Shown piece after piece: positions 7,191 to 23,206 of a stretch of DNA of 37,965 bases. The position numbers were made by a program, and so were the translations under genes. The notes under the pieces are model-generated. The model saw only the letters and a program-made list of their open reading frames with translations. It did no database searches and was not told the DNA's origin. The stretch's first letter is position 1, and the number at the start of each line of letters is the position of its first letter. The DNA lies in contig WQXS01000018.1 of the NCBI GenBank assembly GCA_009784725.1, forward strand, positions 1 through 37,965. The letters run 5' to 3'. This DNA comes from Oscillospiraceae bacterium. GTDB lineage: Bacteria; Bacillota; Clostridia; Oscillospirales; Oscillospiraceae.

Positions 7191-8465
7191 ATGCCGGAAT
7201 TATCGAAAAAAAGAAAATATTCCGCAGCGGGTAAGCGTAAGCGTTTGCCTGTGTTTTCCATTTTGCTTGTGATTTGCTATATAGCTGTCGCAGCATTTAT
7301 TATTTCATATGCTTTAGGCGGTATAAGACCTTCCGAGGATTCGCACGAAGTTATGTCGTTTGATTTTTCAGCGGTCCGTGATGAAATTCTAAGTATGGCT
7401 TCCGAGCCCGATTCCGCAGAGCCGATACCCCTGCCGCCGCCTGTTCAGGTAAAAGGCGTTTGGCTCGGTGCATGGTGGATTGCCGAGGATGATACGCTGA
7501 TTGACAGGTTTATTGAGATTTGTGAAACTACGGAGTTAAACTCACTTGTAATAGATATAAAAGAAGAGTACGGATATGTTGTAATGCCGCTCGATGACGA
7601 AAGATATCCGCAAAATGAAAATATCGTAATTGAAGACCTTGCCGAAGTAATAGAGGATTTAAACGACAGAGGTATTTATACAATTGCCAGAATCGTTTGT
7701 TTTAAGGACCCGAGATGGGGGTCGAAAAATCCTCATCTTGCTCTTCGCGATAAAGACGGAAACCGCTGGAGAGACAGAGGCGGTGTAGGATGGCTTAATC
7801 CGTATGAAAGAGAAAACTGGGAGTATATTGCAGAGCTTTGTCTCGAAGCAGCGAAGTTTGGTTTTAAGGAAATTCAGCTTGATTATGTCCGTTTTCCCGC
7901 TGACGGCAAGCTGAGTGAAATTGACTTCGGTGCAGCAGGGGAGGCTCAGACTAAGGCTGAGGTAATAGCCGAGTTTATGTCCTTTATCCGTGATACCATG
8001 CTAAAGGTCGGTGTAAGGACCTCTGCCGATGTTTTCGGGATTATAGCACTAAGTGACAATGACGCACAAATCATAGGACAGGACCCGAAGCTGCTCTTTC
8101 ATTCGCTTCATTACATAAGCCCGATGATTTATCCGTCACACTTTTCAAACATAAACCAAAACGGGGTCGGTCAGTTTATTAACAGTGTTTTATTTGAAAC
8201 TCCCGATACCGAGCCGCACGGAGTGGTTTATCATACATTACAGCACTTTTTACGCCTTCGGGATGCGGACAACCCGGACAAGGCGATTATAAGGCCGTAT
8301 CTTCAAAGCTTCACGGCAGGTTATCTCGGCGAGGGTATGTTTATAAATTACGGCACCGACGAAATTAGAGCCCAAATCCGGGCAGTCTACGACGCAGGCC
8401 TCGAAGAATGGATCCTCTGGAGCAACCACAGCCGCTACAACCCGGAATATTTCTTAAGTGAATAA
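7191..8465 (+). CDS. Membrane-anchored putative glycoside hydrolase (DUF4015-like)
   Basis: 424 residues. A basic N-terminus (KKRKYSAAGKRKR) precedes one transmembrane helix (about residues 21-42), then a linker rich in acidic residues and proline, then a TIM-barrel-like domain from about residue 80 to the end. Motifs include VKGVWLGAWW, VIDIKEEYGYV, ARIVCFKDPRWG and EIQLDYVRFP with Asp231. These match proteins annotated as putative glycoside hydrolases of the DUF4015 family, whose substrate is not established. The orientation implies a domain outside the membrane, perhaps acting on cell-wall or exopolysaccharide glycans. It is monocistronic, with its own strong promoter. A family B repeat follows directly and fills the gap to the convergent gene. 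Confidence 0.85.
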   Translation: MPELSKKRKYSAAGKRKRLPVFSILLVICYIAVAAFIISYALGGIRPSEDSHEVMSFDFSAVRDEILSMASEPDSAEPIPLPPPVQVKGVWLGAWWIAEDDTLIDRFIEICETTELNSLVIDIKEEYGYVVMPLDDERYPQNENIVIEDLAEVIEDLNDRGIYTIARIVCFKDPRWGSKNPHLALRDKDGNRWRDRGGVGWLNPYERENWEYIAELCLEAAKFGFKEIQLDYVRFPADGKLSEIDFGAAGEAQTKAEVIAEFMSFIRDTMLKVGVRTSADVFGIIALSDNDAQIIGQDPKLLFHSLHYISPMIYPSHFSNINQNGVGQFINSVLFETPDTEPHGVVYHTLQHFLRLRDADNPDKAIIRPYLQSFTAGYLGEGMFINYGTDEIRAQIRAVYDAGLEEWILWSNHSRYNPEYFLSE

Positions 8466-8485
8466 AGTATATATTTTGCGACTCA

Positions 8486-8588
8486 GAGTCATTATATATA
8501 CTTCTTTTTCGTTCGAAGAAACGTCCGTGTTTATACTCACGCACCTCCCCGTCCATGGGTCGGCTGACAGAAGTATATCTAATGACTC
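8486..8588 (+). repeat. Dispersed long-inverted-repeat element, family B copy 1
   Basis: Arms GAGTCATTATATATACTTCT (8486-8505) and the matching right arm (8569-8588) are complementary at 19 of 20 positions. The 63-base loop carries a core also found in copy 2 (20887-20997, opposite strand): CGAAGAAACGTCC, then GTTTATACTC, then CCCCGTCCATGGGT. It lies between convergent genes. Downstream (8589-8640) the unit ccrAGCCGC...TAAGATT occurs twice, about 27 bp apart, and once beside copy 2. Confidence 0.75.
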
Positions 8589-8635
8589 CGAGCCGCTGAT
8601 AAGATTTACTACCTCCAAGCCGCATGTAAGATTAT

Positions 8636-11600
8636 CTATATCCCCAGCTTTTTCAGCAGCTTCTTTGTAGGGATGCCGTTTTCGTCCCAGCGTCTTATTT
8701 TGTAGTATTTTTTCAGCATCGGTTTTAGTTGGACGGTGCTTTTTTGTTCTTTTTGGGGGTCGTCGGTCAGTCTTTTTGGCAGGGAGTCGCCGGAAAGGCC
8801 TTGGTTTATGTTGATGATGCGTTCGAGGTTGTAGATTCGTTCGCCTGTGCGGACGAATTTGCCCAAGTTCATTTTATTGCCTGTTATCTGCATATAAACA
8901 TATGGATAGGGAACCATTGCGGGTAAATTGAAGTCGAGAAGCCCGGGGTGCTTGTGCAGAAATGATACGATACCTCCGAAGCTTGGTATAAGGCTGTTTA
9001 CGGCTCTGACAATTTGATTTTTCGGTTTGGTGATTGCAGGTGCGGGGAATACTGCATATGTTGTGAACAGGCAGCTTCCAAGAGCGGACGCAGCTTCCAT
9101 CAAGTCCTGGAAGAAGATGGTAAACGCTGGTTTGCCTCTTGTGGTTGCACCTTTGACTTTTAAACCGAGTCCTTCGAGAACAACCATATAACCGCCGTTT
9201 AAGTGGCAGCCGCCTCTGTTTGCTGTTGCGTAGCCGAGTCCCATACCCTGTGCCGAGTGCGGGTCGTAGGCCGCAAGCTCGAGACCCTTGCTGTGTACGG
9301 CAAATTCTTTTCCGCCATATTTTTCCGACATTGCTTTTACGCCGTTTGCGAGGTCTGCTCCGATACCCTCACGGGTTGCAGTCATTTTAACAAGCTCTTC
9401 AAGCTTTTCACAGGCTCCGAACTGTAAGCCGTTATCCCATAAACCCTTTTCGGAAAGCTCCATTGCAAAGCCTACAGAGCCTCCAAATGACATTGTGTCC
9501 AAGCCGTATTCATCACATAAATAATTAACGGCAATTATTCTCTCGAGATTGTCATGGAGCAGGTTTGGACCTAAAAGACCGATTGTTTCAAGCTCGGGTC
9601 CTTTGACTTCTTTACCTTCATAGCTCACAACACGGCCGCATTGAATAGGACAGGTTATGCAGCCTTTGTTTTTAATCAGATATTTATCGCGAAGTGTCTC
9701 ACCGCTGACATTGTCATAATTGTCAAATGTACCGCCCTGGAAGTTCTTGGTTGCAAGAAGATTTCTTTCCTGCATTTGCCGTACGAGTGCTGCGGTTCCG
9801 AGCTCCGGAAGCTGTTTTCCGGTCAGGGGATGTTTTTTAAGGATTGAAACCCATTTCTTACTGAAGTTTTTCAGTTTTTCACTGTTTGCGATGCTTATCG
9901 GATTTGCCGAGCCGTCTGCTACAATTGCTTTTAAATTCTTAAAACCGAATACGGCTCCTGCTCCACCGCGGCCTGCGACCCGCTCACGGTTTACGACACA
10001 GGCGTAACTGACCAGATTTTCACCGGCTGCACCGATAACAAGCTTACCGCCGGAGCCAAGCAGCTCCATTGCTTCGCCTGTTGCTTTACCCCATAAATCA
10101 CCGGCATCGGTAAGTTTTATCCCGTCACTGTCAATTTTAATATATGTTTTACCCTGTGCTTTACCGAGTATTAGCAAACCGTCGTAACCGGACTCTTTAA
10201 GCTTCAGACCGAAATCACCGCCGCAGTTGGAAGACATCAGAAGACCTGTAAGCGGTGATATTGTTGATATGTTAAAGCGTGAAGAACTTGGAACACCCGA
10301 TTTATTAAACGGCGATGTTGTAATGATGATCGGGTTTTCCTCGGAAAATGCTTCTATCTTACTATTTTCATTATTGACAGCATTTTTTTTTATCATAACC
10401 GAATAGTCATAAAAAATCTTTGCAGCAAGACCTTTTCCGCCTACGTAAGCAGCAAGGTCATCTTTTTGCGGCATAAATTCTTTAACATCACCGGTCGTCA
10501 GATTGATTTTTGCCATTTTTCCGGCATATCCCGTGCTGCCCGATTTTCCGAGCAGACGCATGTACAGGCTTTTAAAATCGTTTCGGGAGAAAATGCGGGG
10601 GACAGGATATGTTGGGTTTGCTTCATTGTATGAATGGTTCGATAAATATGGGATATCATCTTCGACGAGTTTATCGATTACCGTCGGGATTCCCATCTTT
10701 GCATTTAATTCTCTGATTGCGGAAATAAATGCTTTTGCTTTGATTTCATCTGTATCGCCTTGGATTTTTACAAGGGTTGCAAGCTCGGCAAGCTGTTTGT
10801 ATATACTTTTGCCGTAATCATCGAGGACGTAGGGGAGGATAACAGCGTTTGCAAGCCCGTGTGCAACGCCGTATAAACCGCCGAGTGCGTGAGCTGTTGC
10901 GTGTACATTTCCGACATACGCCCTTGTAAATGCAACTCCACCGAAAAAAGCGGCTTTCAGCATGTTTGCTCTTGCGTTTACGTTGCTGCCGTCTTCGTAT
11001 GCTGTATATAGATTGTCAAAAACCAGAATCGTTGCCATTTTTGCCATTTCAAGGGTCTGCTTTGTATTACTTCCGCCTATGTATGCTTCTATTGCATGGG
11101 TAAGTGCGTCCATTCCCGTAGTTGCGGTGACAAACGGCGGGAGCTTTAAGGTTAAAAGCGGGTCGAGAACCGCAACCCTCGGAATTAAAGCAGGGTCCAT
11201 GATTGCGTATTTTTCTTTTGTATTACTGTCGACAACAACGGCAGCGACCGTTGTTTCACTTCCTGTACCTGCTGTTGTCGGTACAGCATATAAAAGCGGC
11301 AGAGGTACGAGTACTTTTAACAGTCCTCTCATGCGGCGTATATTTGTACGGGGGCGTGCAACCCGGACGCCGACACCTTTGGCACAATCCATAGGTGAAC
11401 CGCCGCCGAATGCAATAATTCCCTTACAGTTATTTTCTTTATAAAGAGTATATGCCTCTTCGATATTATCAAGTGTAGGGTTTGGAACGGTTTTATCGTA
11501 TATTGCCGTTTTAATATCTGCGCTTCGGAGGGCTTCCTGTAAGCTGTCTGTTAATCCGAGTGACATTATCATGCTGTCGGTGACAAGCAGTATACTGTCT

Positions 11601-11737
11601 ATACCTTTTGACTTAATCAGCTCGGGTAATCTTGTGACCGAACCTTCTCCCTCAAGAAGCTCCGGCTTCCGCCAGGGCAGGCAGTATGCCGCATATCTGA
11701 ATATGAACTGATAAATTCTGCAAAAAATCTTAAACAT
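8636..11737 (-). CDS. Fusion of iron-type alcohol dehydrogenase and tungsten aldehyde:ferredoxin oxidoreductase
   Basis: 1,033 residues from ATG at 11737, chosen because AAGGAG lies six bases upstream. Residues about 20-395 form a group III iron-dependent alcohol dehydrogenase: GGGSPMDCAKG (from 111) for NAD(P), and metal ligands Asp210, His214, His283 and His293. Residues about 403-1010 form an aldehyde:ferredoxin oxidoreductase. It begins at YAGKMAKINLTTG, and has GRGGAGAVFGFKNLKAI, cluster cysteines CITCPIQC (693, 696, 700), the pterin motif DEYGLD (742-747) and a fourth cysteine at 889. The second pterin motif, DXXGLC in the characterised enzyme, reads SALGSC here. Expected activities are reversible acid/aldehyde conversion with ferredoxin and aldehyde/alcohol conversion with NAD(P)H. 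No membrane segment is obvious. It starts 24 bases after ilvN and shares its operon. The direction and substrate are not shown by sequence. Confidence 0.93.
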   Translation of the reverse strand: MFKIFCRIYQFIFRYAAYCLPWRKPELLEGEGSVTRLPELIKSKGIDSILLVTDSMIMSLGLTDSLQEALRSADIKTAIYDKTVPNPTLDNIEEAYTLYKENNCKGIIAFGGGSPMDCAKGVGVRVARPRTNIRRMRGLLKVLVPLPLLYAVPTTAGTGSETTVAAVVVDSNTKEKYAIMDPALIPRVAVLDPLLTLKLPPFVTATTGMDALTHAIEAYIGGSNTKQTLEMAKMATILVFDNLYTAYEDGSNVNARANMLKAAFFGGVAFTRAYVGNVHATAHALGGLYGVAHGLANAVILPYVLDDYGKSIYKQLAELATLVKIQGDTDEIKAKAFISAIRELNAKMGIPTVIDKLVEDDIPYLSNHSYNEANPTYPVPRIFSRNDFKSLYMRLLGKSGSTGYAGKMAKINLTTGDVKEFMPQKDDLAAYVGGKGLAAKIFYDYSVMIKKNAVNNENSKIEAFSEENPIIITTSPFNKSGVPSSSRFNISTISPLTGLLMSSNCGGDFGLKLKESGYDGLLILGKAQGKTYIKIDSDGIKLTDAGDLWGKATGEAMELLGSGGKLVIGAAGENLVSYACVVNRERVAGRGGAGAVFGFKNLKAIVADGSANPISIANSEKLKNFSKKWVSILKKHPLTGKQLPELGTAALVRQMQERNLLATKNFQGGTFDNYDNVSGETLRDKYLIKNKGCITCPIQCGRVVSYEGKEVKGPELETIGLLGPNLLHDNLERIIAVNYLCDEYGLDTMSFGGSVGFAMELSEKGLWDNGLQFGACEKLEELVKMTATREGIGADLANGVKAMSEKYGGKEFAVHSKGLELAAYDPHSAQGMGLGYATANRGGCHLNGGYMVVLEGLGLKVKGATTRGKPAFTIFFQDLMEAASALGSCLFTTYAVFPAPAITKPKNQIVRAVNSLIPSFGGIVSFLHKHPGLLDFNLPAMVPYPYVYMQITGNKMNLGKFVRTGERIYNLERIININQGLSGDSLPKRLTDDPQKEQKSTVQLKPMLKKYYKIRRWDENGIPTKKLLKKLGI

Positions 11738-11761
11738 AACCACTCCTTTACTCCGCAATAT

Positions 11762-12265
11762 TCAGTCTGCGGAAAAGACACTGTCAGAGCCTTGAAGCAT
11801 TGCTATAAGTCCCGAACGGCAAACTTCAAGGATTCCTATTTCTCCGGCTGCTTCAATGAATCTTTCGATTTTTTCGGAGCTTCCCGAAATTTCCGCTGTA
11901 ATAAAATCGGCACCGAAGTCCATGACATTTCCGCCGTAATCATTAATAAGATCGCTGATTGCGGCTTTCCCTTCATTTCCGAGCTTAAGCTTAATCAGCA
12001 TATGCTCAATTGAAACGGAACTGTCATTATTTAATAATGCAACCATTTTAACATCGCTAAGTTTTTCCAATTGTCTGAGAACCTGGTTTTTCATATACTC
12101 GTCACCGGTTGAAACGATTGTCATTCTTGAATATTCGGGGTTTTCGGTTTCCCCGACCGCAAGGCTGTCAATATTATAGCCGCGCTTTGCATAAAGACCT
12201 GCAACACGGTTCAACACGCCAAAATGATTGGAAACAATGATTCCGACAATAAATTTCTCGCTCAT
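11762..12265 (-). CDS. ilvN: Acetolactate synthase small (regulatory) subunit
   Basis: 167 residues, the normal size for the short form of the family. An N-terminal ACT domain (about residues 4-75; GVLNRVAGLYAKRGYNIDSL) binds valine for feedback control of the large subunit, and a C-terminal domain completes the activating region. The ATG start is supported by AGGAGG nine bases upstream. It follows ilvB with 21 bases between, and the dehydrogenase-oxidoreductase fusion starts 24 bases downstream, so the three genes read as one operon. Confidence 0.95.
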   Translation of the reverse strand: MSEKFIVGIIVSNHFGVLNRVAGLYAKRGYNIDSLAVGETENPEYSRMTIVSTGDEYMKNQVLRQLEKLSDVKMVALLNNDSSVSIEHMLIKLKLGNEGKAAISDLINDYGGNVMDFGADFITAEISGSSEKIERFIEAAGEIGILEVCRSGLIAMLQGSDSVFSAD

Positions 12266-12286
12266 AAATAGTCCTCCTGTCTCCTG

Positions 12287-13957
12287 TCACTCTAAAATTA
12301 CATCATTTATAGTGCCGCCGGCAGGTATCATCGGAAGCACTTTTTCATCTATATCGATTTTACATTCTATAAGAAATGGTAAGTTACCGGATGCTTTTTC
12401 CAAAGCTTCAGAGAGTTCGGTAATATTTTCTGCGATAAGTCCTTCAGCTCCGAACGCTTTGGCAAGTGCAGGGAAATCTGTTTTCCGGTTTATTGTTGTA
12501 TTTGAGTAACGTTTATCAAAAAAGAGTGTTTGCAGCTGCCTTACCATTCCGAGTGAGCCGTTATTTAACAAAATAATCGTAATAGGAAGCTCCATAGTAA
12601 CCGCAGTTGCAAGCTCGGCAAGGTTCATGCCAAAACTTCCGTCTCCCGTTATAAGAACGGTTCTTTTACGATTGCCGGCTATGCAGGCACCAACTGCTGC
12701 ACCCATACCATATCCCATTGCACCGAGGCCGCCCGATGAAATAAGTTTTCGCGGTTTTTCAAATCCGTAATACTCTGCAACCCACATCTGATGCTGTCCG
12801 ACATCGGTGGCAACAACGGTATCATCACCGTAATAGCTGTTTACGCAATTGATAATATTTGACGGTGTGAATTCGCCGGATGGAATAATCCGGTCTTTTT
12901 CTTTTAATTTTCTGACATGCTCCACCCATTCGGTGTTGGTTTTCGTTTTTACTTTATCGACAAGAATCGGAAGAACATCATTTAAATCGGCGCAAATGCC
13001 TACAGTTGGTCTTATGTTTTTTCCAAGCTCGGCTGCGTCAATATCAATGTGGATCACTTCGGTGTTTTTGGCGTAATCGCCTGCTTTGCCTGTTGCACGG
13101 TCAGAAAATCTAACGCCGAGAGCGATTATAAGGTCTGCTTCCGACTTTGCCGTTATTGATGCCAATCGTCCGTGCATTCCGCTCATACCGAGATTTAAAG
13201 CAAAGGAAGCGGGAACAGAGCCTATCCCCATCAGCGACATACCGATAGGAGCACCGATTTTACCTGACAGCTCCATTACAAGCTTACCTGTATCGGTTGC
13301 CGAAACACCGCCACCGCAATAGATATAAGGGCGTTTACTGTTTTGAATCAAGCTGACGGCATCGTTTATATCCGCGGAGTCTTTATCATAGGATGGATGT
13401 ATTACTCCCTTTTTATCGGACGGTAGTTTGAACGAGGGGTTATATTCTGCAGCTTCAATTTGGATATTTTTAGGAATATCAATGTGTACGGGACCTTTTC
13501 TGCCTTTTTCCGCAAGCGAAAACGCTTCGTTAATAATAAACTGCAGGTCGTTAATTTTCCTGACGACATAGCTGTGTTTTACAATCGGCAATGTAACTCC
13601 GACAATATCGATATCCTGAAACGAGTCTTGGCCAAGCATTGGAACGGCAACGTTTCCGGTGATGAAAACAACAGGAACCGAGTCGAGGTATGCATTTGCA
13701 ATTCCTGTGATTAAATTCGTCGCTCCCGGTCCGCCCGTTGCGATAACAACACCGGTCTTGCCGCATACCCTTGCATAAGCGTCGGCAGCATGTGCGCCGC
13801 CTTGTTCATGAGCAGGCAGAATATGGCTGATAAACTCTTTTTGCTTATAAAGCTCATCATAAATATTAATAACATATCCGCCCGGGTAGCCAAACACTGT
13901 TGTTGTACCCAAACGGATCAGCTCTTTAACTAAAATTTCAGCACCTGTAAGTTTCAT
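12287..13957 (-). CDS. ilvB: Acetolactate synthase large (catalytic) subunit
   Basis: 556 residues, full length. A thiamine-diphosphate and FAD enzyme that joins two pyruvates to acetolactate, or pyruvate and 2-ketobutyrate to acetohydroxybutyrate, at the start of branched-chain amino acid synthesis. Seen are GYPGG, the catalytic Glu51 in LPAHEQGGAHAADAYAR, GPGATNLITGIANAYLDSVP, and the TPP motif GDGSFGMN followed by LLNNGSLGMVRQ. It is the first gene of a minus-strand operon with ilvN and the oxidoreductase fusion. No Shine-Dalgarno sequence precedes the ATG, and the best promoter puts the transcription start at the ATG itself, so the message may be leaderless. I see no T-box or attenuator leader. 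Confidence 0.97.
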   Translation of the reverse strand: MKLTGAEILVKELIRLGTTTVFGYPGGYVINIYDELYKQKEFISHILPAHEQGGAHAADAYARVCGKTGVVIATGGPGATNLITGIANAYLDSVPVVFITGNVAVPMLGQDSFQDIDIVGVTLPIVKHSYVVRKINDLQFIINEAFSLAEKGRKGPVHIDIPKNIQIEAAEYNPSFKLPSDKKGVIHPSYDKDSADINDAVSLIQNSKRPYIYCGGGVSATDTGKLVMELSGKIGAPIGMSLMGIGSVPASFALNLGMSGMHGRLASITAKSEADLIIALGVRFSDRATGKAGDYAKNTEVIHIDIDAAELGKNIRPTVGICADLNDVLPILVDKVKTKTNTEWVEHVRKLKEKDRIIPSGEFTPSNIINCVNSYYGDDTVVATDVGQHQMWVAEYYGFEKPRKLISSGGLGAMGYGMGAAVGACIAGNRKRTVLITGDGSFGMNLAELATAVTMELPITIILLNNGSLGMVRQLQTLFFDKRYSNTTINRKTDFPALAKAFGAEGLIAENITELSEALEKASGNLPFLIECKIDIDEKVLPMIPAGGTINDVILE

Positions 13958-13964
13958 AATGTTC

Positions 13965-13993
13965 AGAGTAGCACAGTAAAATCATCATGTCAA
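13965..13993 (-). promoter_or_regulatory. Promoter for ilvB, predicted leaderless transcript
   Basis: Minus strand: perfect TTGACA (13993-13988), a 17-bp spacer and TACTCT (13970-13965), which keeps the key T, A and final T of a -10 box. Transcription would start at about 13957, the A of the ilvB ATG. The moderate -10 suggests possible activation by a regulator. Confidence 0.5.
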
Positions 13994-14007
13994 TGAGAGT
14001 GTATTTA

Positions 14008-14016
14008 TGGTATAAT
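14008..14016 (+). promoter_or_regulatory. Extended -10 promoter for the phosphopantetheinyl transferase gene
   Basis: TGGTATAAT is a full extended -10 with no good -35. The -10 box ends at 14016 and the ATG is at 14026, so the leader would be about 0-3 nt. It lies back-to-back with the ilvB promoter; the -35 of ilvB occupies the place where this promoter's -35 would be. Confidence 0.6.
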
Positions 14017-14025
14017 CCTTAAGTC

Positions 14026-14640
14026 ATGTTATTAATTTTTGATAATTTAAATAATTTGGAAGATGATTTTTGCAGCGATTTCAAATCCTTGCTTTCCGTG
14101 CAAAGAATCACTAAAATAAACGGGATAAAATCACAGGCAGGCAAAAATGCTTCAGCAGCCGTATATCTCTTATTGCGCTTAGGTTTATTAAGAATGTACG
14201 GTATAAATAAAGCGGTTGATTTTGAGTTTGTAAATCACAAAAAACCGATATTACCGGAGTTTCCGGGTATTTTCTTTAATTTGAGCCACACAAAAAATAC
14301 TGCTGCATGTGCGATTTCGTATACAGATGTCGGGGTTGATGTTGAATATGTCAGACCCGTGTCGGATAAGCTTGCAAAGCGTGTCCTTACAAAAAATGAA
14401 TACAAGGATTTTATCGCATCAAGCAATAAGGATGAGTATTTTTGTAAAATCTGGACCATAAAAGAGAGCTTTTTGAAAAAAACGGGAGACGGGATTACTA
14501 AGGAATTATCAGATATATCGGCAGCAGAGCTTGAGGAAATTCAAACATATAAGGGCGATGATTATTTTTGTTCGGTCTGCGGGCTGAAAATGGAGATTTT
14601 ACACATCGGGAGGGAAGATTTTGAAGAGTTACGAAGCTGA
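14026..14640 (+). CDS. 4'-phosphopantetheinyl transferase (Sfp-type)
   Basis: 204 residues. It transfers phosphopantetheine from coenzyme A to a serine of an acyl- or peptidyl-carrier protein. The family signature is clear: VGVDVEYV with metal-binding Asp105 and Glu107, and WTIKESFLKK with Trp143, Lys146 and Glu147. NLSHTKN lies in the middle. The size is near the usual Sfp class, about 220 residues, rather than the short AcpS type. No polyketide or peptide synthetase is in the window, so the carrier-protein partner is unknown; coaD, which acts in CoA synthesis, lies four genes downstream. There is no ribosome site, and the promoter predicts a leaderless message. It overlaps the ligase gene by 20 bases. 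Confidence 0.9.
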   Translation: MLLIFDNLNNLEDDFCSDFKSLLSVQRITKINGIKSQAGKNASAAVYLLLRLGLLRMYGINKAVDFEFVNHKKPILPEFPGIFFNLSHTKNTAACAISYTDVGVDVEYVRPVSDKLAKRVLTKNEYKDFIASSNKDEYFCKIWTIKESFLKKTGDGITKELSDISAAELEEIQTYKGDDYFCSVCGLKMEILHIGREDFEELRS

Positions 14641-15922
14641 CAAAAAGGTCAAGGCATTATTTGAGCTTTTGACAGAAACAAGTTCAAGCCTTGCGAAAAG
14701 GGATATCCTTATAATCAATAAAGATAATGAAACCTTTACATCTTATCTTGATTATTTATTGAATCCTTTTTTAGTAACAGGTATTTCCGAAAAGAAAATA
14801 TCTAAAAAGCCGGACAAGGTACCTACATGCTCATTTGAGTCATTTAATGAGCTGATGGAATACATTTTGCAAAATAATACCGGAAGCGATGAGGTTATTG
14901 CAAATATAAGGCAGTTTTTAGATACGCATGAGCCGGATATGAGTGGATTTTATATTTCAATAATAACAAAAGCTGCAAAGCTTGGATGTGATGTTAAATC
15001 CGTAAACAAAGCATTCGAAAAGGAATTTATCCCGCAATGGGAAGTCCAGCAGTCGTATAATATAGAAAAGTCACCGTTAAAGGAAGGTGAGTGGTTTTCA
15101 CTTTCGGAAAAACTGAACGGAGTAAGAGGTACGTTTTTTGAAGGTAAAATGTTCAGCAGGCAGGGTAAGGAAATAACGGGACTTGAACATATAACAGCGG
15201 ATATCTCAAAGCTTTTTGATGATGCGGATTCATGGGTGCTCGACGGGGAGCTTGTAAGGAAAAACACAGACGGGGTCTCCGATAATGAAAATTTCAGAAT
15301 CGGTACAGGCCTGCTCGGACAGGATGATGCGGATAAAAGCTGTATGCAGTTTGTAGTTTTCGACTTTTTACCGAAAGAGGAATTTAAGCATGGTGAGAGT
15401 GTATTATTATATAAAGAAAGATTATCCGCTTTAACAGAGCTTAAAAAGAAAATAACCGACCTTTCTCTGTCTGCACTGACAGTTGTAGAGGTACTCTACA
15501 CCGGCACGGATGCGGGTAAGATTGATTATTTCCTTGACCGCATGGTAAGTGAAGATAAAGAAGGCCTGATGCTTAATAGAGACAGTAAATATTCATGCAA
15601 AAGGCATAACGGTATTTTAAAGGTCAAAAGGTTTTATACGGTCGATCTGAAAATTGTTGAAACAGAAGAAGGCTCGGGGAGAAACTCGGGGAGATTAGGT
15701 GCATTTGTTGTTGAGTATAAAGGGAACTCAGTGAATGTCGGTTCGGGCTTTAGTGATGAGCAAAGAGAAGAATATTGGAAAAACCGTGAAGCCATGCCCG
15801 GGCGTGTTATTGAAGTGAAATACAAGGAAGAAAGCAGTGATAAAAAAACCGGTCAGGTCAGCCTGCAGTTCCCCGTATTTGTGTCCTTAAGAGAAGAAGG
15901 TAAGGAAGAAAGTTATTATTAA
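14621..15922 (+). CDS. ATP-dependent DNA ligase, phage T4-like
   Basis: 433 residues, close to T4 ligase (487) in layout. An alpha-helical N-terminal DNA-binding domain (about 1-150) is followed by the nucleotidyltransferase core. Motif I is EKLNGVRG with nucleophile Lys164, motif III is WVLDGELV, IIIa is FVVFDFLP, IV is EGLMLNRD and V is LKVKRFYTVDLKIVE. A C-terminal OB fold (about 345-433) contains VNVGSGFSDEQREEYW. Motif I has Asn where the consensus KXDG has Asp. It seals nicks with ATP, unlike the NAD-dependent LigA used for bacterial replication. TTG start with GGGAGGGA upstream. No phage genes surround it, so it looks like a domesticated phage-type gene. The UvrC-like nuclease begins 34 bases downstream. 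Confidence 0.9.
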   Translation: MKSYEADKKVKALFELLTETSSSLAKRDILIINKDNETFTSYLDYLLNPFLVTGISEKKISKKPDKVPTCSFESFNELMEYILQNNTGSDEVIANIRQFLDTHEPDMSGFYISIITKAAKLGCDVKSVNKAFEKEFIPQWEVQQSYNIEKSPLKEGEWFSLSEKLNGVRGTFFEGKMFSRQGKEITGLEHITADISKLFDDADSWVLDGELVRKNTDGVSDNENFRIGTGLLGQDDADKSCMQFVVFDFLPKEEFKHGESVLLYKERLSALTELKKKITDLSLSALTVVEVLYTGTDAGKIDYFLDRMVSEDKEGLMLNRDSKYSCKRHNGILKVKRFYTVDLKIVETEEGSGRNSGRLGAFVVEYKGNSVNVGSGFSDEQREEYWKNREAMPGRVIEVKYKEESSDKKTGQVSLQFPVFVSLREEGKEESYY

Positions 15923-15956
15923 TAAAAGTAAAAATTAATTAACCTGAGGTATAAAG

Positions 15957-17345
15957 TTGAGAAATACCAACGTGTTTGAAGAGCTGCGAGAAAAAGCGTC
16001 AAAATTACCGCTGCTCCCCGGGGTTTATCTGATGAAGGATGAGCAGGGGACGGTTATTTATGTCGGTAAAGCGGCACGCCTAAAGAACCGTGTAATTTCT
16101 TATTTTCACAAAAGCCCGGAGCTTCTTTCAAATCACGATATCAAAACCGACTTAATGGTATCGAAAATTGCTGATTTTGATGCAATTATTGTTGAGTCCG
16201 AGTTTGAGGCATTAATTCTGGAAAACTCTTTGATTAAGGAATATATGCCGAAATATAATATAAAACTACGTGATGATAAAGGATATCCGGTTATAAGGGT
16301 AGACGTAAAAACCGAATATCCGGCATTTAAGATTGTATCGATTCCCGCTGATGACGGTGCGCTTTATCTTGGCCCGTATGGAGGCAGGCAGGATACACGA
16401 AAAGCCCTTGCAGCTGTCAGCAAAGCGCTTCTCGTGCCGACATGCGGGAAAAATATCAAACAGATTCTTGGTAAACAACGTCCGTGCCTGAATTTTGATT
16501 TAGGTAACTGCAGGGGATACTGTCAAAAAAAAGAACTTGCAGATGATTACAGAAACGCAATTGCTGCGGCAATTGACGTATTTCAGGGAAAAACAGGAAG
16601 CCTTGCAAAGAAACTGACAAAGGATATGGCAACTGCATCGGATAACCTTGATTTTGAAGTTGCGGCAATTTACAGAGACAGAATTAATGCAATAAAAGTT
16701 CTTCAGCAAAAACAGTTTTTCACCGAGGAACCTATAGAAGAACATGCGGCTTTATACAAGGAGAAAATACTGAAAACCCATCAATGGCTCGAAAAGGCCC
16801 TTAAGCTTGATTCTATCCCGAACAGGATTGAAGCTTATGATATATCAAATACCGGCTCTTCAAATATAGTCGGCGGGATGGTAGTGTTTGTAAAAGGCAA
16901 GCCGCTTAAAAAGGATTACAGAAGATTTAAAATCAGAACCAAAAAAGGTCAGGATGATTACGGAAGCATGAAAGAGGTTGTTTCAAGAAGACTAAAGAGA
17001 TTCATCTCGGGAGATGAAAAATTCAAACCTCTTCCCGACATTATATTTATTGACGGCGGAGTAAATCATGCATCTGTAATATCTAACCTCCTAACCGAAA
17101 TGGACATAAAAATACCGGTGTTCGGAATGGTTAAGGACGAAAAACATAAAACAAGGGCTCTTGTAACACCAAGCGGAGAGGAAATAGGCCTTGCGGCAAA
17201 TCCCGCAGTCTATGCACTTATCGGAACAATCCAGGATGAAACCCACCGCTATGCAATTCAATACCACAGGTCACTTCAATCAAAAACAATGCTGAACCGT
17301 AACCCTCGTCTAAAAACCGATGCGAAGGCGAGTAAGGGAGACTAG
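15957..17345 (+). CDS. Compact UvrC-like nuclease
   Basis: 462 residues against about 600 for standard UvrC. Present are a GIY-YIG nuclease domain (GVYLMKDE with Tyr24, VIYVGKAARLKNRV with Tyr35, metal-binding Glu89 in LENSLIKEY), the cysteine cluster RPCLNFDLGNCRGYC, a UvrB-binding UVR motif (about 222-250) and an RNase H-like nuclease domain with Asp295 in EAYDISN, FIDGG and DETHRYAIQYHRS. Missing are roughly 90-100 residues between the UVR motif and the RNase H domain, and the C-terminal helix-hairpin-helix domain. I find no helix-hairpin-helix remnant in any frame between the stop and rsmD, so this looks like a genuine short form, not a fresh frameshift. TTG start with TGAGGT seven bases upstream. 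It may act in nucleotide excision or as an accessory nuclease; a full uvrC elsewhere would favour the latter. Confidence 0.85.
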   Translation: MRNTNVFEELREKASKLPLLPGVYLMKDEQGTVIYVGKAARLKNRVISYFHKSPELLSNHDIKTDLMVSKIADFDAIIVESEFEALILENSLIKEYMPKYNIKLRDDKGYPVIRVDVKTEYPAFKIVSIPADDGALYLGPYGGRQDTRKALAAVSKALLVPTCGKNIKQILGKQRPCLNFDLGNCRGYCQKKELADDYRNAIAAAIDVFQGKTGSLAKKLTKDMATASDNLDFEVAAIYRDRINAIKVLQQKQFFTEEPIEEHAALYKEKILKTHQWLEKALKLDSIPNRIEAYDISNTGSSNIVGGMVVFVKGKPLKKDYRRFKIRTKKGQDDYGSMKEVVSRRLKRFISGDEKFKPLPDIIFIDGGVNHASVISNLLTEMDIKIPVFGMVKDEKHKTRALVTPSGEEIGLAANPAVYALIGTIQDETHRYAIQYHRSLQSKTMLNRNPRLKTDAKASKGD

Positions 17346-17424
17346 CATCGGAAAGGACGAGCAACGTAGTGGAGCGGATAACCATAGAAGATGGATGGAG
17401 CGGAATGGAGTTTGTGAGGACGTA

Positions 17425-17967
17425 ATGAGGATAATTAGCGGAATGGCCCGGGGCAGAAGATTAAAAGAGCCGAACGGGAATAGAATCAGACCAACAAGCG
17501 ACAGGGTAAAGGAATCGGTTTTTACCATAATTCAATTTGATATTGAAGGCAGGCGGGTGCTTGACTTATTTGCGGGTACGGGTCAATACGGTATTGAAGC
17601 ACTCTCTCGAGGTGCAAAGTTTGTAAAGTTTGTTGATTCGTCAAAGGAGTCGGTTAAGCTTGTGTGCGATAATCTCGAAATATGCGGATTTTCCGATTCG
17701 GCAGCCGTTTACGGACGGGATGCACTTAAATATCTTGAAAACGATGAAAAATTTGACCTTATTTTTATAGACCCTCCGTATGAAACAGGGCTTGCAGCCA
17801 AAGCGGTTCAGAAAATTACGGAATTTGACAAACTTAACATTAATGGTATAATAATATGCGAATTAAGCGCTGATTCAAAGCCGCCTCAGACTGAGCTTCC
17901 GTATGTATTGTTTAAAGAGTATAAATACGGAGGCGTGAAAATAGTAAAATACATACGTGAAGAATAA
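17425..17967 (+). CDS. rsmD: 16S rRNA (guanine966-N2)-methyltransferase RsmD
   Basis: 180 residues. An S-adenosylmethionine-dependent methyltransferase acting on G966 of 16S rRNA during 30S assembly. Motifs are the N-terminal MRIISGMARGRRL, the SAM-binding LDLFAGTGQYGIEALSRGA (Asp47) and the catalytic DPPY (116-119). I start it at the ATG at 17425, which begins the conserved family N-terminus and has GAGGA just upstream. The frame extends to 17320, but those 35 codons show no family similarity. RsmD and coaD are neighbours in many bacteria, as here. Confidence 0.95.
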   Translation: MRIISGMARGRRLKEPNGNRIRPTSDRVKESVFTIIQFDIEGRRVLDLFAGTGQYGIEALSRGAKFVKFVDSSKESVKLVCDNLEICGFSDSAAVYGRDALKYLENDEKFDLIFIDPPYETGLAAKAVQKITEFDKLNINGIIICELSADSKPPQTELPYVLFKEYKYGGVKIVKYIREE

Positions 17968-17991
17968 GACCATTTGAAAGAACAGCAAAAA

Positions 17992-18489
17992 ATGAGCATA
18001 GCCGTATACCCCGGAAGCTTTGACCCGATTACTCTCGGACATTTGAATATTATCAGGCGAACCGCATCAGTATTTGACAAGGTATATGTTTGCGTAATGA
18101 TTAACTCGGAAAAAAGTCCGCTCTTCACTCATGAGGAGAGGGTTGAGTTCATCGAGCGGACTGTTGTAAGATATAAAAACGTAATTGTTGAATCATCCGA
18201 TGACCTTCTCGTTAAATATATGGAGCAAAGAAAAGCAAAGGTCATAATTAAAGGGCTTCGTGCCGTATCGGATTTTGACAGAGAGTTTCAAACGGCTCTT
18301 ATAAACAGAAAACTTGACCCGGGTATAGAAACGCTCTTTATGCCTTCAAGTGAAAAGTATACTTATATCAGCTCCTCGGCAGTAAAGGAAATGACACGAT
18401 ACGGTGCAGACCTTAAAACCTTTGTACCTCATGAAATAATAGACGATGTAATCAAAAAAGTTGAATGTGAAGGGATGATGTTCAAATGA
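17992..18489 (+). CDS. coaD: Phosphopantetheine adenylyltransferase
   Basis: 165 residues. Catalyses transfer of an adenylyl group from ATP to 4'-phosphopantetheine, the penultimate step of coenzyme A synthesis. AVYPGSFDPITLGHLNII contains the TxGH nucleotide-binding motif, and ISSSAVKEM is the second conserved motif. The ATG at 17992 matches the normal family N-terminus. A TTG at 17974 in the same frame would add six residues, and neither has a strong ribosome site. The last four bases overlap the next gene (ATGA). Confidence 0.94.
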   Translation: MSIAVYPGSFDPITLGHLNIIRRTASVFDKVYVCVMINSEKSPLFTHEERVEFIERTVVRYKNVIVESSDDLLVKYMEQRKAKVIIKGLRAVSDFDREFQTALINRKLDPGIETLFMPSSEKYTYISSSAVKEMTRYGADLKTFVPHEIIDDVIKKVECEGMMFK

Positions 18490-19034
18490 GCAGCAGGATT
18501 CCGGAAATGCTAAATATGCTTCACGCCATGATTACCGAAGCGTGGGGAGTACCGCTCGGGGCAGAAAAATGTGTTATCGACAGAGATAAGGCTCTGGATA
18601 TACTCGATGAAATAAGAGGACAGTTCCCGACGGAAATCGCCGAAGCAAAAAGACTTCTCGATGCAAGAGCAGATTTTATCAACAATGCAAAAAGGGAAGC
18701 GGATACAATCAAACGTAATGCGGAAGAGCGGGCAAGGCATTTGATTGATGATCAGGAAATTATTAAGATTTCACGAGCAAAAAGCAACGAAATGCTGTCT
18801 CATGCAGAAACATCCTCCACAGAACTTAAAAGGGTTGCAAACGAGTATGTAGATGATGCAATGCAGCGTACCGAGGAGGCTTTGAAATCAGCACTTGACG
18901 AAATAAATCAATCAAGGCAGAGATTCCGTCAGGCGGCTAAAGCAGCTGCCGAGGCTCCGCAGCCGGCACCTCCGACAGGACCGCCGCCACAGCCGTCATC
19001 ATCAATACAGGATTTTGATTTTGATATTGATTAA
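18486..19034 (+). CDS. Coiled-coil protein of unknown function, translationally coupled to coaD
   Basis: 182 residues, not assigned. Residues about 25-150 are a near-continuous charged helix typical of coiled coils (KRLLDARADFINNAKREAD and similar). The tail is Ala/Pro-rich (AAKAAAEAPQPAPPTGPPPQ) and ends in the acidic FDFDID. There is no signal peptide or membrane segment. The overall look recalls DivIVA/SepIVA-type or ATP synthase b-subunit-like helical scaffolds, but I cannot place it in a family. Its ATG overlaps the coaD stop by four bases, so the two are cotranslated. A role in organising division or envelope machinery is a guess from shape only. Confidence 0.85.
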   Translation: MSSRIPEMLNMLHAMITEAWGVPLGAEKCVIDRDKALDILDEIRGQFPTEIAEAKRLLDARADFINNAKREADTIKRNAEERARHLIDDQEIIKISRAKSNEMLSHAETSSTELKRVANEYVDDAMQRTEEALKSALDEINQSRQRFRQAAKAAAEAPQPAPPTGPPPQPSSSIQDFDFDID

Positions 19035-19052
19035 GCGGTATTTGACTGTTTG

Positions 19053-19093
19053 AATATGAGAAATTCTATCATGAGGATTGGATTTCTCGTATT
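19053..19093. terminator. Hairpin after the coiled-coil gene, possible weak terminator
   Basis: AATATGAGAAAT (19053-19064) pairs with ATTTCTCGTATT (19082-19093) over 12 bp with one G-T wobble, around a 17-base loop. The stem is AT-rich and is followed by TTACTT rather than a long T-run, so termination would be weak. It sits between the coaD operon and the ABC exporter promoter. Confidence 0.4.
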
Positions 19094-19097
19094 TTAC

Positions 19098-19125
19098 TTG
19101 AGAGTTGAAATTTAATTTATATTAT
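19098..19125 (+). promoter_or_regulatory. Possible promoter for the ABC exporter
   Basis: TTGAGA (19098-19103), a 16-bp spacer and TATTAT (19120-19125), each one base off consensus. The start near 19132 would leave about 11 nt before the ATG at 19143. Confidence 0.45.
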
Positions 19126-19142
19126 GAAACGGAAATAAAAGT

Positions 19143-20870
19143 ATGAAGAAGTTAATAAGATTATTTAAGTTTGCAGGACCGTGGGCATATCTTCTTGTAA
19201 TTGTAACGCTTGCATTATTTGTTATAACTGCAGTAAATCTGCTTGCCCCGGAAATTACAAGACAGATAATATCGATTATGGAGCACGGAGAGCTGGAAAA
19301 CTCAATAGGCAGGATTACAATGCTTGCTCTTGTTCTGCTTGCATGTTTTGCTCTTCGGGCTGTCTGCCAGTTTATCAACAGCTATCTTTCGCATGTCGCT
19401 TCATGGAACATGGTAAATAAAGTGCGGGGTATTGTATATGACCATTTGCAAAATCTGTCAATGAGTTATTATCACGACAAGCAGACAGGGCAGCTCATGT
19501 CAAGGGTAGTCAATGACACCGGCACCTTCGAAAGCCTCATAGCACATGCATTGCCGGAGGTTACAACAAACCTGCTTACAATTATCGGTGTCCTCGTTAT
19601 TTTATTTATGATGAATCCGCTTCTTGCGCTTCTTGTATGTATTCCGATTCCTTTTATTGCCGTAGTTTCAATGATTCCAAGGTTGATGAGAAAGCATTTC
19701 AAAAGTGCGCAGGAGAAGATTGCAGATTTAAACGCAGTGCTGCAGGATAATTTTTCGGGGATAAAAGAAATCCAGGTATTTAACAAACAGAGTCAGGAAT
19801 CGCAAAGGGTTTTGGCAAAATCGACACAGTATACAAAGGATATCATCAAAGCATTGTTTTATGCGGGGATTTTGCATCCCTCGGTCGCATTTATAACAAC
19901 AATCGGAACAATTATCGTTCTCATTGCAGGTCCGGTAATTGCATTAAATACCGGTCTTGATATAGCGGATGTTGTTGCGTTTTTGCTATATTTGAATCTT
20001 TTCTACGCTCCTATCGCAATGCTGACGAGAATTGTTGAGGATATTCAGCAGGGGCTTGCAGGGACGGAACGTGTTTTTGAGATACTCGATGTAGAGCCCG
20101 ATATCAAAGACAGCCCGGATGCAAAAGCCGTCAGCAGGCTAAGCGGGCAAATTGAGTTCAGGGACGTTACATTTTCATATGAGGATGATATCGAAGTTTT
20201 AAATCATATAAGCTTTGAAGCAAAGGCAGGTCAAATGATTGCAATTGTCGGTCCTACCGGCGTGGGTAAAAGCACGATTTCCGGCCTGATTGCACGGTTT
20301 TATGACCCTACCTCAGGCTCAATACTTATGGACGGAATTGATATAAAGGATATGACGCTGGAAAGTCTGCGAAATCAACTGAGTCTTGTTTTACAGGATG
20401 TTTTTCTGTTTAACGGCACGATTGGCGAAAACATTGCATACGGTACAGATGATGCAACATCGGAAATGATACAGGATGCAGCGAAAATCGCCTGTGTCGA
20501 CGAGTTTATAGAGTCACTCCCGGATAAATATGATACATATATCGGTGAGAGGGGAATCAGGCTCAGCGGCGGGCAAAAGCAACGCCTTTCCATTGCACGC
20601 TCCGTTTTACGCAACTCTCCGATTCTGCTGCTTGATGAAGCAACATCGGCGGTTGATACCGAAACCGAGCGGGAAATCCAAAATGCAATCAGCAAAATTA
20701 TCGGTCACAGAACAATAATCGTCATCGCCCACAGGCTTTCAACCATAAAAAAAGCAAACAAAATAATCGCTCTGCAGGACGGCAAAATAGTCGAATCCGG
20801 CACCCACGACGAGCTAATCGCCAAAGGCGGCGTTTACTCTGCACTGGTCGAGTACCAAAGTTTGAGTTAG
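19143..20870 (+). CDS. ABC exporter, fused permease and ATPase (MsbA/LmrA type half-transporter)
   Basis: 575 residues, typical of a half-transporter. An N-terminal six-helix membrane domain (about 15-320) contains the coupling segment SMSYYHDKQTGQLMSRVVND. The C-terminal ATPase has Walker A GPTGVGKST (from 370), signature LSGGQKQR (from 474), Walker B ILLLDEATSAVD and the His switch in IVIAHRLST. It should work as a homodimer, or with a second half-transporter that is not in the window, exporting lipids, drugs or peptides; the substrate cannot be read from sequence. It stands alone with a weak ribosome site. Its stop is directly followed by a family B repeat on the opposite strand. Confidence 0.92.
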   Translation: MKKLIRLFKFAGPWAYLLVIVTLALFVITAVNLLAPEITRQIISIMEHGELENSIGRITMLALVLLACFALRAVCQFINSYLSHVASWNMVNKVRGIVYDHLQNLSMSYYHDKQTGQLMSRVVNDTGTFESLIAHALPEVTTNLLTIIGVLVILFMMNPLLALLVCIPIPFIAVVSMIPRLMRKHFKSAQEKIADLNAVLQDNFSGIKEIQVFNKQSQESQRVLAKSTQYTKDIIKALFYAGILHPSVAFITTIGTIIVLIAGPVIALNTGLDIADVVAFLLYLNLFYAPIAMLTRIVEDIQQGLAGTERVFEILDVEPDIKDSPDAKAVSRLSGQIEFRDVTFSYEDDIEVLNHISFEAKAGQMIAIVGPTGVGKSTISGLIARFYDPTSGSILMDGIDIKDMTLESLRNQLSLVLQDVFLFNGTIGENIAYGTDDATSEMIQDAAKIACVDEFIESLPDKYDTYIGERGIRLSGGQKQRLSIARSVLRNSPILLLDEATSAVDTETEREIQNAISKIIGHRTIIVIAHRLSTIKKANKIIALQDGKIVESGTHDELIAKGGVYSALVEYQSLS

Positions 20871-20886
20871 TATATCTTATCGGCGG

Positions 20887-20997
20887 CTTGGAGGTAGTAT
20901 ATATATTTCTGATAAGCGTACCCATGGACGGGGGAGCGCGCGAGTATAAACAGGACGTTTCTTCGAGCGGAAAAGAAATATATATACTACCTCCAAG
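20887..20997 (-). repeat. Dispersed long-inverted-repeat element, family B copy 2
   Basis: Perfect 24-bp inverted repeat: left arm 20887-20910 (CTTGGAGGTAGTATATATAT plus TTCT) and right arm 20974-20997. Read on the minus strand, the 63-base loop has the same core as copy 1 at 8486-8588 (CGAAGAAACGTCC, GTTTATACTC, CCCCGTCCATGGGT). The outer stem sequence differs from copy 1 but remains complementary. The flank at 20871-20886 matches the AGCCGC...TAAGAT unit that follows copy 1. Confidence 0.8.
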
Positions 20998-21025
20998 ACG
21001 CTAATAAAACCCTTTTCAAATTATA

Positions 21026-22523: not shown

Positions 22524-23105
22524 ATGAGTTTAGTTCCGATGGTAGTTGAGCAAACCTCGCGCGGAGAGCGGTCATATGATATTTTTTCAAGACTGCTCAA
22601 TGACAGAATAGTTATGTTAAGCGAAGAGGTAAACGATGTTACTGCAAGTTTAATAGTCGCACAATTTTTGTATCTTGAAGCACAGGACCCCGATAAGGAC
22701 ATTCAATTTTATATCAATACCCCCGGCGGTTCCGTAACCTCGGGACTTGCAATATACGATACGATGCAGTATATAAAATCGGATGTACAGACGATTTGTA
22801 TCGGAATGGCTGCAAGCATGGGTGCTTTTCTGCTTTCCTCGGGAACAAAAGGAAAACGCATTGCACTTCCGAATGCAGAGGTTATGATACATCAGCCGTC
22901 CGGCGGTTTCAGAGGTCAGGCAACGGACATTCAAATCCATGCCGATAAAATTCAACGCACAAAAGAAAGATTAAACAGGATTCTTTCGGAAAATACCGGG
23001 AAAACCATTGAGGAAATAACACTCGCATCCGACAGGGATAACTACATGACAGCCGAAGAAGCAAAGGATTTCGGCCTTATCGATAATGTGATTTATAAAC
23101 GTTAA
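22524..23105 (+). CDS. clpP: ATP-dependent Clp protease proteolytic subunit
   Basis: 193 residues, standard length. Serine peptidase forming the 14-subunit chamber that works with ClpX, encoded next. The catalytic triad is at the classical positions: Ser98 in AASMGAF, His123 in MIHQPSGG and Asp172 in SDRDNYM. Ribosome site GAGGAGA lies upstream of the ATG. The final codons (DNVIYKR) form the left arm of a 14-bp inverted repeat whose right arm is in the intergenic region. I see no CtsR-like heptad operator upstream; the gene appears to be read from the tig promoter. Confidence 0.97.
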
Positions 23106-23206
23106 ATAATTTAACAGGTTTATAAATCACATCAGTGATATACAAAAGATAAATTAAATCAAATAAATTTTACACGTTTATAAATCACATCGGTGATATA
23201 CAAACG
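23087..23206. repeat. Inverted and direct repeat cluster between clpP and clpX
   Basis: TGTGATTTATAAAC at 23087-23100, inside the end of clpP, and its exact inverse GTTTATAAATCACA at 23118-23131 form a 14-bp stem with a 17-base loop. The right arm with its downstream flank, about 29 bases, is repeated directly at 23176-23204, 58 bases later, with one A/G difference. Each direct copy also holds a small ATCAC-atcr-GTGAT hairpin. AACGTTAAATAA is repeated too (23098-23109 and 23203-23214). The right end lies just before the clpX ribosome site. It could be a processing or attenuation structure or a pair of operators. Confidence 0.65.

Follow-up and report, generated by a model that had tools for sequence, protein, structure and literature searches.

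Two intergenic hairpins of an Oscillospiraceae bacterium most likely belong to the TwoAYGGAY RNA family and are copies of a dispersed repeat with a variable stem

We analysed a 37,965-nt stretch of genomic DNA from an Oscillospiraceae bacterium (contig WQXS01000018.1, assembly GCA_009784725.1), referred to here as the window, and found that two of its hairpins, judged from their sequence, most likely belong to TwoAYGGAY (RF01731), a known RNA family. They are copies of a repeated element that, in the genomes we searched, occurs in one genus only, and that related species carry at some matching sites and lack at others. We consider it probable that this TwoAYGGAY-type element spreads as a non-autonomous repeat, with its arms mainly copied from one another and with a constraint on the folded GGA strand, i.e., the strand on which the hairpin loops read GGA.

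The window hairpins match TwoAYGGAY RNA

When the two copies were searched alone (181 bases each), the best Rfam match of both was RF01731, with 40.3 bits for copy 2 (E 1.7e-5) and 38.7 bits for copy 1 (E 3.7e-5), i.e., 2.7 and 4.3 bits below the gathering cut-off of 43 bits; relaxed thresholds were used to reveal the family. A sibling copy in another species (L061) reaches 47.2 bits and exceeds the cut-off. The hairpins had been presented, in an original prediction made from the letters of the window, as the best candidate for an undescribed element, a description that these matches do not support. With E up to 5 allowed, five of 20 loci have an RF01731 match, which lies above the cut-off in L061 and below it in the others (L120, 38.8; L069, 38.3; L123, 36.5; L070, 28.6 bits), and two loci match in a separate run of six (L061, and L052 at 30.2 bits). 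All RF01731 matches fall on the GGA strand. Both copies have the AYGGAY-type loop pair (ATGGAC and ACGGAC in copy 1, ATGGAC and a shorter AGGAC in copy 2), and an outer stem with weak sequence conservation encloses both hairpins, as expected for TwoAYGGAY. At gathering thresholds, an Rfam scan of the window gave one tRNA only.

In the available portions of the literature, TwoAYGGAY is described as a probable RNA that is not cis-regulatory, recorded from the human gut, gamma-Proteobacteria and Clostridiales (PMC2864571), and its external stem as poorly conserved (PMC4333381); it is also mentioned in PMC11701678 and PMC11661157, and its name is contained in PMC7657543. A description of TwoAYGGAY as a mobile repeat was not found in those portions of the open-licence literature. 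The window element agrees with the published family, as far as the latter is described there, in having two neighbouring hairpins with AYGGAY-type loops within an outer stem and on the same strand, but differs from it in its 39 copies in one genome, its long copy-specific stems and a loop of hairpin P2 that is often altered.

Both window hairpins are real, and each has a 63-nt core between self-complementary 28-bp arms. The two copies had been placed on opposite strands, which is correct, with coordinates that fall a few bases short at each end; the sequence blocks that they share are as originally quoted, and the self-complementary arms are longer than had been noted. The parts are as follows, R1 denoting a covariance model based on nine copies:

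8471..8603, RNA-like strand minus: copy 1, whole TwoAYGGAY-type element (RF01731 38.7 bits; R1 129.3 bits)
8478..8505, strand-neutral: copy 1 outer stem, low-coordinate arm (hairpin scan and recount)
8569..8596, strand-neutral: copy 1 outer stem, high-coordinate arm (25/28 pairs)
8519..8532, minus strand: copy 1 hairpin P2 (minus-strand loop ACGGAC)
8548..8559, minus strand: copy 1 hairpin P3 (minus-strand loop ATGGAC)
20878..21006, RNA-like strand plus: copy 2, whole TwoAYGGAY-type element (RF01731 40.3 bits; R1 144.5 bits)
20883..20910, strand-neutral: copy 2 outer stem, low-coordinate arm (hairpin scan and recount)
20974..21001, strand-neutral: copy 2 outer stem, high-coordinate arm (27/28 pairs)
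20921..20932, plus strand: copy 2 hairpin P3 (loop ATGGAC; readout and Rfam alignment)
20948..20960, plus strand: copy 2 hairpin P2 (5-nt loop AGGAC; readout and Rfam alignment)
8608..8623, strand-neutral: orphan 16-nt half-arm adjoining copy 1, identical to part of a copy 2 arm and perhaps a remnant of a second element

A dispersed family within one genus

The proposal that the two copies belong to a dispersed family was borne out by searches of the genome of origin (G000, 98% complete). The use of copy 1 as a blastn query gave nine places, itself counted, and the loop pattern occurs exactly at 11 places, compared with none for the reversed control. With R1, 49 matches were obtained at E up to 1, which collapse to 39 distinct loci once nine hits to the opposite strand of palindromes already counted and one weak 29-nt hit are removed, so further copies do exist. 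R1 matches were present in nine of the 19 genomes of the genus, G000 included, and in none of 41 genomes outside it, the latter being searched under stricter filters that lose weak matches. The working set comprises 104 distinct elements from 100 loci (39 in G000, 33 in G009, 13 in G002 and 19 in others).

Carriage by viruses or plasmids was considered and rejected, as the four IMG/VR pattern hits are 25-base partial matches with no stem and lie in apparent coding DNA; a second pattern had no match in IMG/VR, and blastn with copy 2 against plasmids and phages had none either. A single pattern hit in KSB1 is a 21-base partial match.

A conserved core within a variable stem

The fold of the elements can be represented as a three-way junction, in which an outer stem (P1) encloses two hairpins, P3 and P2, whose loops are of the A(Y)GGAY type on the GGA strand; single-sequence minimum-energy folds recover P1 in most copies and often draw the interior otherwise. 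A closed GGA-type loop is found on P3 in 88 of the 104 elements, while the P2 loop reads GGA in 76, CGA in 21 and neither in seven, and both stems occur in several complementary versions. In an expanding G000 subfamily, the P2 loop is CGA instead of GGA in 14 of 19 copies. Two departures from this plan were seen: a common longer sequence replaces P3, with loss of the GGA loop, in L106, L107, L108 and L110 (all from one G000 subfamily), and a stretch starting GTCATTCCGCACTTGATGCGGAATCC, which resembles another palindromic repeat, breaks into P2 of L245 (G007:C35). A function as an intrinsic terminator was dismissed because the T tract is missing after the stem (at least six T within 8 nt past it in 0/103 and 2/103 copies on the two strands).

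We compared the core with the arms in four groups of copies, each within a genome or subfamily. Between copies, the core identity is 0.71-0.93 and the 5′ arm identity 0.32-0.84, mostly dropping outward, as counted on ungapped positions, which lowers the arm identity, and with five copies whose cores are at least 80 nt left out. The arms nevertheless remain complementary within each copy (0.88-0.98 over the inner 27 positions), and in G002 and G009 near-identical cores stand beside very different yet paired outer arms. The original reading of a constant core inside a covarying stem is supported. In an alignment fitted to the structure, with 123 rows including 17 second-strand and two duplicate hits, 93.2% of cells are paired, compared with 59.1% (sd 0.6) after shuffling and 34-43% with slid partners, and the covariation score reaches 0.781, while shuffling gives 0.185 and sliding 0.104 at most.

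This strong covariation is one argument for a functional RNA whose stem is held by selection alone, with compensatory changes passing through G-U pairs. We regard this explanation as unlikely, since near-identical cores carry very different outer arms and since the changes in the stem, described below, only partly take the form that it requires.

Arm copying and constraint on the folded strand

Each copy was compared with its nearest relative over ungapped positions; reciprocal pairs are counted twice, and 14 of 85 copies were skipped as having no close relative. In the four groups, 64/108, 9/15, 21/46 and 20/39 of the paired double changes are unreachable through G-U, and the single changes number 41, 42, 63 and 16; double changes with an unpaired state (12, 2, 5 and 2, 21 in all) were set apart. 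In addition, two shared sites whose flanks match on both sides carry the core in opposite orientations (L157/L065 and L030/L132), and L031/L148 has a similar appearance with one flank matched. Since about half of the double changes do not pass through G-U and cores are inverted, the data fit a copying of the arms by DNA template switching, which homogenises inverted-repeat arms and inverts spacers in the systems described in the available text of PMC8604942 and PMC8794818. Selection alone is disfavoured both by these inversions and by the paired double changes, roughly half of which are of the transversion type. As arm-to-arm copying accounts for part of the covariation, the latter alone does not prove RNA selection.

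The mismatches in the stem may point to a further influence. Counted as unique contexts on the GGA strand of the 104 elements, which are not fully independent given the common ancestry of the copies, G-U mismatches outnumber A-C mismatches by 115 to 33 (3.5-fold, p about 8e-12). An earlier count on 56 loci gave 89 G-U, 23 A-C and 93 other mismatches, and at 15 loci that are antisense to both neighbours there are 26 G-U and three A-C. The excess of G-U over A-C suggests that the folded single strand is also constrained, so that the signal of single-strand folding that had been anticipated is present. It likewise agrees with an RNA maintained by selection alone, including at the antisense loci, as does the pair L157/L065, where the element is identical across 113 nt and the flanks are 12-18% different. 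Taken as a whole, the original interpretation is partly supported.

In the explanation that we favour, the element would spread as a small non-autonomous repeat, at times inside other palindromes. Its P1 arms would be kept complementary mainly by the copying of one arm from the other, through polymerase template switching within the hairpin, and the same switching could flip the orientation of the core. The GGA strand would itself be constrained in its folded form, whether RNA or single-stranded DNA, which would leave G-U far above A-C, and a protein is the most likely ligand of the two hairpins, with CsrA as the published candidate. A more far-reaching version, which we put forward tentatively, is that TwoAYGGAY, instead of consisting of ordinary regulatory RNA genes, is the core of an enzyme-less self-spreading hairpin, with the core selected as a folded single strand and the stem rewritten in each copy by arm copying and by the capture of target palindromes.

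Several observations weigh against the favoured explanation or one of its parts. Regarding identity, both window copies score beneath the RF01731 cut-off, and inside their 3-kb loci (L022, L028) they had no Rfam match at E up to 0.5. Regarding arm copying, single changes exceed paired double changes in two of the four groups (42 vs 15 and 63 vs 46), L057 and its G007 partner share the same orientation with no inversion, and each of the two inverted pairs may stem from separate insertions into one site. If template switching acted alone, G-U and A-C mismatches would be expected in equal numbers; the other mismatches amount to 112 unique contexts, and the G-U/A-C bias may come from a strand-biased mutation process. 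Regarding mobility, one of the empty sites described below (L064) retains 11 nt that are found in the L056 arm and may be a deletion scar, and a mobilising enzyme was not identified among the two families searched (Y1_Tnp and RVT_1; other families were not surveyed).

Insertion sites and candidate mobilising enzymes

In the sister genomes G007 and G008, ten loci were compared and seven sites resolved. At five of these the matching site is empty (L064, L153, L160, L158 and L152), at one only remnant arms are left (L056) and one is shared (L057); L150, L151 and L155 gave no resolved match. At the position where G008 holds L152, L243 (G007:C97, about 1180-1260) contains another short stretch with GGACGATGGCAATCGTCC-type palindromes. 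Similarly, G000 lacks the element in the promoter region (L033) that corresponds to the L060 site of G009. Across genomes, 11 pairs have a common neighbour gene within 500 bp among 120 elements, many loci having a flank of about 0.4 kb, and therefore few sites are seen as shared.

This presence or absence at sites, together with the repeated and intergenic nature of the element and its inverted-repeat ends, would fit a miniature inverted-repeat transposable element (MITE) whose terminal inverted repeats are recognised by a mobilising DDE transposase. However, none of 103 testable copies has an abutting direct repeat of at least four bases at the stem, and shuffling the flanks gives nearby direct repeats of about the same length (3.27, vs 3.34 observed). 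The missing duplications strain this explanation, and conservation is lower in the arms than in the core, so we disfavour it as very improbable (DDE transposases were not searched for). The original view that this is not an ordinary MITE is in line with both observations. Two close element pairs in G009 were also considered as the ends of composite transposons and rejected, the intervening open reading frames looking host-like (by eye, no family search).

Mobilisation by an HUH (Y1/RAYT) transposase as single-stranded DNA, or by a reverse transcriptase as RNA, would account for the single-strand fold signal and for the copies that lie within other palindromes, and both enzyme families are present elsewhere in the genus (Y1_Tnp in 8/19 genomes, RVT_1 in 7/19). 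G000, despite its 39 copies, has no match to Y1_Tnp or RVT_1, G009 has none to RVT_1, and the presence of Y1_Tnp does not follow the distribution of the element, which makes this route quite improbable; a different enzyme, or one since lost, may have been at work. Thus, the transposase or recombinase partner that had been envisaged was not found in G000 for the two families tested; other families were not searched.

The outer arms might instead belong to the target, if the element lands in the loop of pre-existing palindromes and so acquires copy-specific paired arms. Inverted flanks that are specific to the copy extend past the stem in 15 of 19 copies of one G000 subfamily (mean score 17.4 vs 8.9 shuffled), and 18 copies of the remaining smaller genomes score above shuffling (8.3 vs 5.9, shuffled maximum 6.8). 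G000 also has 13 element-free GGGGACA..TGTCCCC palindromes (L090-L102) with several arm types and small loops, seven of which begin GGGGACAGG, as do the subfamily flanks, and at the insertion point of L153, G008 has an unoccupied stretch of repeated sequence. However, the flank signal is missing in G009 (0/33), in G002 (0/13) and in most of the other G000 copies (2/20), where the arms are equally copy-specific inside the stem. We find this origin of the arms rather doubtful.

The gene context was taken from the longest open reading frames for 56 of the 104 copies. In GGA orientation, 18 loci are ++, 15 +-, 15 -- and eight -+, and 48 of the 56 adjoin at least one gene 3′ end, compared with about 42 for a random orientation. 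In the window, copy 1 is flanked by converging open reading frames that end at 8465 and 8636, and a mechanical 86-codon frame that overlaps it (8365-8625, minus strand) was given no weight. Copy 2 is located after the stop of an open reading frame ending at 20870, which we take, from a motif in its sequence, to encode an ABC transporter. The site of copy 2 is taken up by a hairpin of another family in G009 and by a further long hairpin in G004, while G005 has neither there.

The second long-hairpin family of G009 (L164:7304-7444, L166:1024-1162 and L168:2075-2215), one copy of which occupies the site orthologous to window copy 2, has arms around GGAGGGTATCC or CAGAGGGTATCC and a loop CCAATGCACT...GTGTGCTGA, and its outer arms vary between copies. 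The long hairpin of G004 (L173:1301-1478), a genome with no R1 matches, lies past the same ABC transporter gene.

A possible link to CsrA

TwoAYGGAY has been proposed to bind or sequester CsrA (Gardner and Eldai, PMC4333381, available portion), and we examined how far the present family is consistent with a sponge in which the paired GGA hairpins sequester this protein. The closed GGA-type loops (88/104 for P3 and 76/104 for P2) and the occurrence of csrA in 13 of the 19 genus genomes, including G000 (G000:C48, 83.1 bits), are in agreement with the published proposal. However, the distribution of CsrA shows no clear relation to that of the element, CsrA being present in seven of nine element-positive and six of ten element-negative genomes, and the P2 loop has become CGA in most copies of the expanding G000 subfamily. 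From this analysis, a CsrA sponge would be possible, although we lean against it. The expanding subfamily with its lost P2 GGA offers a natural test of the idea.

Relation to other repeats and significance

The conserved part of REPs is the REP sequence itself. Here, the core is conserved and the arms are not, and G000 has no Y1 transposase match. In other respects, as described in the available parts of PMC3116915 and PMC3733652, REPINs and REPs are alike in being non-coding intergenic palindromes, with REPs reported mostly at positions downstream of genes; REPINs have been proposed to pass through a hairpin intermediate, and a GTAG or CGTC tag is reported at the hairpin foot in the REPIN/RAYT system (the latter in PMC3733652). 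Stem-loop sequence families including ERIC (Cozzuto 2008, PMC2267715, in part) are likewise repeated intergenic sequences with a common predicted fold, but they were grouped by sequence similarity, whereas here the stem sequence is strongly variable between copies. The plasmid stem-loops of Borrelia, compared by their description in the accessible text of PMC2674063, are intergenic repeats with many compensatory changes including transversions, and are read there as conserved RNA structure. The template-switched inverted repeats of PMC8604942 and PMC8794818 share with our element arms that are identical in tracts and an inverted spacer; they are, in the sections available, yeast coding inverted repeats and RNA genes, whereas here many copies of one mobile hairpin would be involved.

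What appears to be new is the behaviour of a mobile intergenic repeat with a stem that is apparently rewritten copy by copy. An orphan Rfam family thereby gains a behaviour, in that it is repeated and mobile in one genus among the genomes searched. If the stems are indeed copied, the outer-stem covariation of TwoAYGGAY, of a kind normally read as proof of RNA selection, would come largely from mutational copying, and caution is warranted in general, as covariation scores can be inflated where stems get copied. The more than 100 natural copies also constitute a data set on the evolution of long near-perfect stems, in which selection via G-U intermediates can be set against template switching.

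When the window was scanned for hairpins with seeds of 10 and loops of at most 220, copies 1 and 2 and one unlike hairpin, at 23086-23190, were the only results. This distinct hairpin has perfect 17-bp arms and a 71-nt AT-rich loop, which holds an additional partial inverted copy of its own arm.

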